Shown piece after piece: positions 37,056-37,537 of a stretch of 64,000 bases of DNA; the stretch's first letter is position 1; each line of letters opens with the position of its first letter. This DNA is from Pontibacter fetidus (GTDB lineage: Bacteria; Bacteroidota; Bacteroidia; Cytophagales; Hymenobacteraceae), in NCBI RefSeq assembly GCF_010119545.1, contig NZ_JAAEAA010000004.1:124001-188000 (forward strand), in the 5' to 3' direction. The notes beneath the pieces were generated by a model. That model searched no databases, was not told the origin of the DNA, and saw only the letters and a list, made by a program, of their open reading frames with translations. The position numbers and the translations under genes were made by a program.

Positions 37056-37129
37056 GGGGGATTAGCTCAGCTGGCTAGAGCGCTTGCATGGCATGCAAGA
37101 GGTCATCGGTTCGACTCCGATATTCTCCA
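37056..37129 (+). tRNA. tRNA-Ala (anticodon GGC)
   Basis: A complete cloverleaf: acceptor GGGGGAT/ATTCTCC, D arm GCTC/GAGC, anticodon stem CTTGC/GCAAG with loop ATGGCAT (anticodon GGC at 37090-37092), T arm ATCGG-TTCGACT-CCGAT and discriminator A at 37129. It decodes GCC. CCA is not encoded (the sequence continues CT). It is followed by its own terminator and then by a GIY-YIG gene and a degenerate copy of this tRNA. Confidence 0.96.
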
Positions 37130-37133
37130 CTAA

Positions 37134-37166
37134 AACGGCAACTATTTCTATAGTTGTCGTTTTTTG
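37134..37166 (+). terminator. Terminator of tRNA-Ala (repeat copy A)
   Basis: AACGGCAACTAT and ATAGTTGTCGTT form a 12-bp stem followed by a T run. The terminator at 37485-37518 is a diverged copy of it. Confidence 0.75.
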
Positions 37167-37170
37167 TTTT

Positions 37171-37422
37171 ATGGCATTTTATACTTGCATACATTATTCT
37201 GAAACTATAGACCGCTATTATGTGGGTAGCTGCGAGGATATAAAAGACAGGCTTAGCAGGCATAATGCCAAGTACAGTAAGTCGACAAAAGCTGGCGCTC
37301 CCTGGGAATTAAAGTATACCGAGTTTTTTGAAACACGCTCCGATGCTGTTACCCGTGAGTTAGAAATCAAGAACAAGAAGAGCCGAAAGTATATTGAATG
37401 GTTAATTAGCACTGCTGGCTAA
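37171..37422 (+). CDS. Solo GIY-YIG endonuclease-domain protein (tRNA-linked)
   Basis: I start at the ATG at 37171. The upstream in-frame extension would begin inside the tRNA. The 83-residue protein is a minimal GIY-YIG domain: an FYTCIHYS start, DRYYVGS (the YIG part), DRLSRHN with the catalytic Arg, and RELEIKNKKSRKYIEWL with the catalytic Glu. Such small proteins (UPF0213/URI type) have no settled function. The last seven codons and the stop overlap the degenerate tRNA copy. No promoter space exists between the tRNA terminator and the ATG, so expression would need read-through from the tRNA promoter. Confidence 0.85.
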   Translation: MAFYTCIHYSETIDRYYVGSCEDIKDRLSRHNAKYSKSTKAGAPWELKYTEFFETRSDAVTRELEIKNKKSRKYIEWLISTAG

Positions 37423-37476
37423 AGCGTCCCGAATGCTTTCGTGAAGGTCATCGGTTCGACTCCGATATTCTCTCCA
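37400..37476 (+). pseudogene. Degenerate tRNA-Ala copy
   Basis: It matches tRNA-Ala at the D arm (ATTAGC...GCTGGCTA.AGCG) and perfectly from AGGTCATCGG through CCGATATTCTC. The anticodon arm is replaced by an unrelated 18-nt stretch, the acceptor stem has two mismatches, the D stem two, and two bases are inserted near the 3' end. It cannot fold as a working tRNA. It overlaps the last 23 bases of the GIY-YIG gene. Confidence 0.8.
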
Positions 37477-37484
37477 CTAAATGA

Positions 37485-37518
37485 AACGGCAACTATAGTT
37501 TAGTCGCCGTTTTTTTTA
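37485..37518 (+). terminator. Terminator of repeat copy B
   Basis: An AACGGCAACTA stem pairs with TAGTCGCCGTT (one mismatch) around TAGTT, followed by a T run. It contains an exact AACTATAGTT at 37491-37500 and is homologous to the tRNA-Ala terminator at 37134. Confidence 0.75.
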
Positions 37519-37537
37519 TTTTATGGCTAACCACAAA

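Follow-up and report, generated by a model that had tools for sequence, protein, structure and literature searches.

The window, the whole stretch of 64,000 nucleotides that was analysed, contains an intact tRNA-Ala(GGC) gene followed by a small GIY-YIG nuclease gene and a degenerate copy of the tRNA, referred to below as the pseudo-tRNA. All features of the locus are located on the forward strand:

37056..37130 (+): intact tRNA-Ala(GGC), the presumed target (ARAGORN; Rfam RF00005, 61.7 bits)
37132..37163 (+): terminator-like hairpin in the interval between the tRNA and the nuclease gene
37171..37422 (+): gene of an 83-aa single-domain GIY-YIG nuclease (PF01541, E 6.5e-13; AF2 mean pLDDT 93.9)
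37405..37426 (+): D-arm part of the pseudo-tRNA, covering the final codons of the ORF (..LISTAG*), 86% (19/22) identical to the tRNA
37427..37444 (+): palindromic hairpin replacing the anticodon arm, imperfect in the window, with one mismatch (G000:C44:161427-161444)
37445..37477 (+): T arm and 3' acceptor strand of the pseudo-tRNA, identical to the tRNA over the first 28 bases
37484..37527 (+): diverged terminator copy, then a repeat of the GIY start (ATGGC)

The 83-codon ORF starts 40 bases past the end of tRNA-Ala. The duplicated stretch extends from approximately position 6 of the tRNA through the terminator to the start codon of the nuclease gene, and the repeat on the 3' side of the pseudo-tRNA continues through the terminator copy up to TTTTATGGC. 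A first-pass annotation of the window had described the tRNA with its terminator, the 83-codon gene, the degenerate copies of tRNA and terminator, the identities of 28/28 in the T arm and 19/22 in the D arm, and the repeat over the nuclease start codon, all of which were confirmed. The imperfect palindrome between the D-arm and T-arm blocks, TCCCGAA..TTCG.GA at 37427-37444, was absent from that annotation. The pseudo-tRNA is still a weak match to the Rfam tRNA family, with 18.4 bits over 37400-37474, below the gathering score of 29.

The comparison of the tRNA with the downstream piece scores 67, against a maximum of 26 over 631 other 200-nt pieces of the window and a maximum of 26 over 1000 mononucleotide shuffles. 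The terminator copy scores 42, against a maximum of 25 over 1000 shuffles of the same kind. A chance repeat as the source of the two copies is rejected by these scores. There is no sign of a group I intron or intein, as tRNA-Ala is uninterrupted according to ARAGORN. Among ORFs of at least 40 aa on both strands, none of integrase size lies between the tRNA and the pseudo-tRNA. The window contains a second small GIY-YIG gene (a 113-aa frame at 60006-60239 on the reverse strand), which has no tRNA nearby.

The 83-aa protein is predicted to form one compact domain, and the AF2 model contains no DNA-binding domain beyond the catalytic fold. Characterised GIY-YIG homing enzymes usually have a separate C-terminal DNA-binding domain. 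In an alignment of 24 rows (A1), residues Y17, G19, R27, and E63 are invariant and Y6 is nearly so; we take the conserved Tyr, Tyr, Arg, and Glu to be the GIY-YIG catalytic residues. The nearest solved relatives in sequence and fold searches are UPF0213 proteins, followed by SLX1 and then, weakly, by I-TevI and UvrC. Searches of NCBIfam and PADLOC returned nothing above a curated cut-off or with a convincing score. A carrier of the gene was looked for and not found: plasmids contain no relatives, and none was confirmed in viral contigs by a search with one peptide pattern; two weak matches from Staphylococcus phages reach 42% over 61% of the query.

Recurrence beside tRNA genes in Bacteroidota

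The searches for related loci were driven by the protein and were blind to tRNAs. A protein scan of the genome collection yielded 67 loci, nearly all from Bacteroidota, or 68 with the window. A same-strand tRNA is located within 200 bp upstream in 43 of the 68 loci, with the isotypes Ala (31), Leu (4), Arg (2), Met (2), and Lys, Gly, Asn, and Asp (one each). Among the remaining 25 loci, at least those listed, many start at contig ends, sit in arrays, or follow a partial tRNA. The downstream tRNA copy scores above the maximum of 100 shuffles in 40 of the 43 loci, and matches the local isotype above every other isotype in the set in 41; loci L161 and L179 fail the own-isotype test, and L135 merely ties with the shuffle maximum. 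In the order-wide sample, composed of one best match per genome and including two loci that duplicate earlier ones (L202 and L203), a same-strand tRNA lies upstream in 25 of 29 loci, no more than 200 bp away in 20 of them. A tRNA copy is present in 24 of the 25, and three more loci have a tRNA only downstream. The corresponding numbers in the phylum-wide sample, also with one best match per genome, are 27 of 29 (26 within 200 bp), 23 of 27, and one. The first-pass annotation had suggested that small GIY-YIG genes often lie beside tRNAs in Bacteroidota, which these three samples bear out, and had proposed a search for repeated tRNA fragments on the far side of such genes, which were found.

Val, Thr, Pro, and Ser tRNAs also accompany the GIY gene in the order-wide sample and the fetched arrays, and the tRNAs beside the family carry 14 anticodons. 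A family match at E<=1e-12 is present in 132 of 296 phylum-sampled genomes. A T5+ run separates the tRNA from the GIY gene in 67 of the 75 GIY domains that have a tRNA within 200 bp. Among the 120 homologues listed, 71 end like LISSAG, the translation of the D arm, and 19 start with a translated tRNA, as their start codons are misplaced into the tRNA. The proteins P0017, P0018, P0020, P0026, P0034, P0040, and P0047 from this list open with translated tRNA-Ala, for example MARALAWHARGRRFDPDTLHK. Locus L223 (genome G153) has nine tRNA-Asp and tRNA-Gly genes in the 1.4 kb preceding the GIY gene.

Within the genus, the tRNA-Ala gene is preceded by a TonB-type gene where one was recognised, and followed by cysK and cysE where the fetched stretch extends far enough. 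A whole-genome protein search identified an intact GIY-YIG gene at the tRNA-Ala site in seven of 25 genus genomes (the window's own, G005, G006, G008, G014, G016, and G019), a truncated 27-residue fragment at the site in G013, and no match to the window protein in the other 17. In G016, the gene is located about 15 kb away from the whole tRNA, behind a 3' half of it. A GIY copy with stops is present in G016. Genome G011 has kept the pseudo-tRNA without the GIY gene, and G007 provides just 138 bp downstream of tRNA-Ala. Two further members of the genus, G041 and G047, carry the GIY gene. A pseudo-tRNA with the same hairpin is also located upstream of the tRNA in G011, G016, G019, G041, and G047. 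Of the 24 other genus genomes that were fetched, 23 share all 75 nt of tRNA-Ala and G024 has 97% identity; the intact tRNA has the same sequence in occupied and empty genomes.

The cysK+cysE tree covers 21 genus genomes, all but G007, G010, G019, and G021 from the set of 25. On this tree, the presence of the intact gene requires at least six changes, five of which are forced by starred branches; the counts do not separate gain from loss. The site is empty in G018, the sister of the window genome on this tree. The gene-free tRNA-Ala sites, for which the first-pass annotation had proposed to look in relatives, thus exist, and together with the scattered presence of the gene they show that the relatives do not share a single vertical arrangement.

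Pseudo-tRNAs, hairpins, and tandem arrays

The similarity between pseudo-tRNA and adjoining tRNA was analysed in 46 distinct pseudo-tRNAs with at least 22/31 matches in the T half, which were selected from the 75 GIY domains that lie no more than 200 bp from a tRNA. The T half is identical (31/31) in 25 of the 46. The T loop and the adjoining stem bases reach an identity of 0.98-1.00, compared to 0.85-0.91 at either end of the T half and about 0.2-0.8 on the D side (n=46); the T-half cut-off and the placement of the compared segment by best match bias this set towards similarity. The T loop is the most conserved region of tRNAs in general. Among 33 Ala loci, from which duplicates L114, L115, and L117 are excluded, the own tRNA is strictly the best T-half match in 22. 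The 11 failures are L122, L155, L161, L167, L179, the window, and five other genus genomes; the window and four of the genus genomes lose to one competitor, and G006 loses to four. T arms identical to the local tRNA occur next to GIY genes that have diverged strongly. In only 15 of the 33 Ala loci is the terminator in front of the copy the unique best match of the terminator behind it, and the flank identities are two-moded, which suggests that some loci resemble tandem duplications and others an entry by homology that stopped at the tRNA end.

Six GIY genes are arranged in the reverse order. In two of them, the upstream pseudo-tRNA matches the tRNA up to position 57 (Ala, L172) or 58 (Asp, L222) and then stops. 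The other four lack an end at the T loop, and the matches cover tRNA positions 1-27 (Pro, L221 and L224), 21-36 (Ser, L043), and 21-75 (Asp, L127). The Ser arrays end near the anticodon. At least two GIY domains, some of them partial, are present within 700 bp in 23 of 110 loci. The complete units of eight fetched arrays, chosen for being tandem, are 315-413 bp long. In four of the arrays (L259, L261, L262, and L263) neighbouring units are up to 100% identical, so the amplification there is recent.

The hairpin of the pseudo-tRNA has a recurrent sequence. The palindrome YCCCG...CGGGR is present in 59 of 80 scored pseudo-tRNAs (50 loci); the 80 copies belong to 68 loci, with array units counted apart, and were taken from the 98 GIY domains that have a tRNA no more than 1200 bp upstream. 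The palindromes are positioned in the anticodon arm or loop (52), T arm (11), D loop (2), and in or after the acceptor (6), with three unplaced and some pseudo-tRNAs carrying more than one. When palindromes are not preselected, a perfect stem of at least six pairs precedes the T half in 37 of 47 pseudo-tRNAs, compared to 33 of 47 genuine tRNAs. The outer bases of the stems before the T half are mostly YCCC/GGGR, and the inner pairs vary. Loci L043, L053, L153, L159, L180, and L044 contain several hairpins in different loops or, in L153 and L044, nested hairpins. No precedent for a hairpin replacing the anticodon arm of a pseudo-tRNA was found in the literature searched.

Proposed mechanism and alternative explanations

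We propose, with a probability of roughly 0.6, that the locus carries a nuclease-only, homing-like element that is directed at tRNA genes, probably cleaving them close to the T arm, and that generates a second copy of its target. We infer the nuclease activity, the cut site, and the mobility of the element. The first-pass annotation had already suggested a nuclease-only element duplicating its tRNA target. This view is supported by the gene-free sites, the scattered presence, and the recurrence with many isotypes across Bacteroidota; it has to be amended in that the duplicated stretch exceeds the tRNA 3' end, and that island-like insertions at the 3' end use the same tRNA separately.

The small GIY-YIG enzyme would be expressed by read-through from the tRNA promoter past the terminator, and would cut tRNA genes, with the T arm or its vicinity as the most likely site. 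Judging from the anatomy of the loci, repair of the break by recombination between tRNA copies would place the cassette beside the tRNA, with one functional tRNA kept and a pseudo-tRNA on the opposite side. Renewed breakage, or unequal exchange involving the repeats on either side, could have amplified the unit into the observed tandem arrays, and may also convert the T arm of the pseudo-tRNA back to the local sequence. On the weakly resolved tree the lineages keep mainly to one isotype, with occasional switches, and the hairpin that usually replaces the anticodon arm of the pseudo-tRNA would travel with the element. Since the intact tRNA is the same in occupied and empty genomes, a sequence-specific cut inside it would strike the element's own host, and regulation or structural selectivity would be needed.

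A more specific version is doubtful. In it, the loci represent a new class of minimal mobile elements of about 315-410 bp, present in close to half of the sampled Bacteroidota genomes and composed of a structure-selective single-domain GIY-YIG nuclease and a hairpin-bearing pseudo-tRNA; the hairpin would be the substrate, and the T arm would provide near-universal homology for entry and amplification at many isotypes. The titles and abstract openings of the open-licence literature searched contain no description of the tRNA/GIY-YIG/pseudo-tRNA arrangement in bacterial chromosomes, and the accessible part of PMC1564403 mentions neither Bacteroidetes nor a small tRNA-linked family.

It is unlikely that the hairpin is the real mobile unit, with the GIY-YIG enzyme as its mover in a RAYT/REP-like manner and the tRNA copies only a good landing structure. 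The palindrome is indeed also found away from tRNAs, and hairpins occupy anticodon, T, and D loops, including the nested ones. At least two palindromes, counted with the copies inside pseudo-tRNAs, are present in 38 of 68 GIY+ genomes and in 7 of 173 GIY- genomes, compared to 1 of 68 and 6 of 173 for a reversed-pattern control. However, the within-family permutation p of 0.0008 rises to 0.16 after one palindrome per GIY gene is subtracted, three GIY- genomes of family f11 carry four to six copies, and the pseudo-tRNA hairpin of L263 lacks the YCCCG ends. The co-distribution of palindrome and GIY gene is strong overall, but it is largely between families and not robust within them. Dispersed TCCCGA..TCGGGA palindromes are located at G000:C46:148415-148432 and G000:C11:11312-11329, and G063 has 38 copies; they are REP-like and, in the contexts read, mostly away from tRNAs. 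The reversed pattern has no matches in G000 and G063.

It is quite unlikely that the GIY gene is a vertically inherited host gene serving a function linked to tRNAs, such as repair at their genes. Such a gene would often be lost, and the pseudo-tRNA would be a decayed tandem duplication of the tRNA. The dN/dS ratio is low, 0.01-0.20, in the seven of 28 genus pairs for which it is computable, one of which has a meaningless dS of 26.5; dS is saturated in the other 21 pairs, and G005 is excluded for length. The genus GIY genes group together with a support of 93 on the family tree, on a branch that is not starred. The genus DNA tree of the GIY gene pairs G006 with G008 (85/92) in a conflict with the host tree that is not significant, and the clade of the host tree put to the test is not rejected by it (AU p 0.224). 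Horizontal movement is therefore not proved for the genus. The patchy presence, the 14 anticodons, the truncated copy in G013 and the copy with stops in G016, the tandem amplification, and the T arms that are identical to the local tRNA although the adjoining GIY genes have diverged strongly speak against a host gene.

The family tree (113 rows, 83 columns) is weakly resolved, with 14 of 109 inner branches starred. The isotype labels require 37 changes on it when "none" is counted as a label, compared to a shuffled mean of 63.3 with 0/200 shuffles as low, and 20 changes when unlabelled rows are excluded; near-copies from arrays inflate this clustering. The four Leu rows form one clade, all from Chitinophagaceae, and the Asp clade belongs to family f19. 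The Val rows span families f9, f14, f15, and f19, and the Thr rows f10 and f19. On this tree, GIY-YIG lineages group by tRNA isotype with occasional switches, the behaviour that would be expected of site-faithful elements.

It is likewise quite unlikely that the gene is a passenger of tyrosine-recombinase islands, in which case both the nuclease gene and the repeated tRNA 3' end would be leftovers of ordinary islands that used the tRNA as an attachment site. A 46-47 bp repeat of the tRNA-Ala 3' part is located about 9-20 kb away in G002, G004, G010, G016, G017, and G021 and on another contig in G003, and the GIY gene in L121, L158, and L165 follows a bare 3' half beginning with the anticodon loop, which looks like an island end. 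In contrast, nothing island-sized is present among the tRNA, GIY gene, and pseudo-tRNA where an intact tRNA lies within 200 bp. The pseudo-tRNA usually has a hairpin and often a D arm, both missing from the island repeats; complete units of the eight fetched arrays measure only 315-413 bp, and the GIY lineages follow isotype. An island remnant does explain the sequence upstream of the GIY gene in L121, L158, L165, and G016, and is set aside as a general explanation for loci with an intact adjoining tRNA. The island-like insertions are found at L057 (G002), L059 (G004), L065 (G010), L073 (G017), L077 (G021), L084 (G003), and L072 (G016). In L061 (G006), from oriented position 2370 onward, the flank past the T arm of the pseudo-tRNA resembles the post-tRNA flank of island genomes such as that of L059, as would be the case if the pseudo-tRNA had been used for attachment instead of the tRNA.

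If the homing-like element is real, homing has in this case been pared down to a single nuclease of some 80 residues living on chromosomal tRNA genes, and the element represents a chromosomal counterpart to the tRNA amplification driven by the phage enzyme SegB. The element accounts for the translated-tRNA starts in 19 of the 120 listed homologues, and its arrangement offers a way to test how a nuclease can coexist with its own target in uncut form. The family also provides dozens of natural pseudo-tRNAs with a standard hairpin instead of the anticodon arm.

Comparison with known systems

The closest proteins by sequence and fold are the single-domain UPF0213 GIY-YIG proteins (1zg2, E 2.4e-11; Foldseek E 6.5e-4). 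Four further GIY-YIG domain genes were found in the window genome (L001, L003, L004, and L005), and in contrast to the family described here none of them has a tRNA in its fetched locus. SLX1, the next match by sequence and fold, is a structure-specific nuclease that acts on branched DNA together with SLX4. An activity of this kind would suit a hairpin substrate, but SLX1 is a much larger protein and has the SLX4 partner. Free-standing GIY-YIG homing genes share with the element the catalytic domain, the intergenic position beside a conserved target, and the presence or absence among relatives, whereas the window protein has no separate C-terminal DNA-binding domain.

Integrase islands targeted to tRNAs use the same tRNA gene and have a 3' repeat. 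They differ from the cassette in the 46-47 bp repeat that starts from the anticodon arm, and in kilobases of cargo; the cassette has neither. RAYT proteins are tyrosine transposases that move REP sequences. REP sequences resemble the hairpins as short palindromes scattered over the genome, but the palindromes here are linked to a GIY-YIG gene and the loops of pseudo-tRNAs, whereas REP sequences go with a tyrosine transposase.

A close parallel in gene arrangement is SegB, a free-standing GIY-YIG homing endonuclease of phages T4 and T6, the gene of which lies amid tRNA genes in the order tRNA-Ile / segB / tRNA-Arg in T4; here, tRNA genes of many isotypes adjoin the GIY-YIG gene. According to the accessible part of PMC13096335, SegB cuts within tRNA genes, better at RAWTSGAAC though not solely there, and drives the tandem amplification of a tRNA+segB unit in which the 5' end of the tRNA and the 3' end of segB share microhomology. 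The 3' end of the GIY gene often holds a tRNA D arm, which would be the same kind of repeat, and the reverse complement of RAWTSGAAC seems to resemble the tRNA T loop; the exact motif is present on the other strand of the T loop in only 13 of 46 tRNAs. SegB differs in its length of 221 aa and its origin from a lytic phage, compared to the chromosomal 83-aa protein, and a pseudo-tRNA with a hairpin is not mentioned in the accessible part of PMC13096335. The two proteins share only PF01541, and hhalign gives a probability of 11 over 26 columns. We propose that the element may work in a SegB-like way without kinship to SegB.
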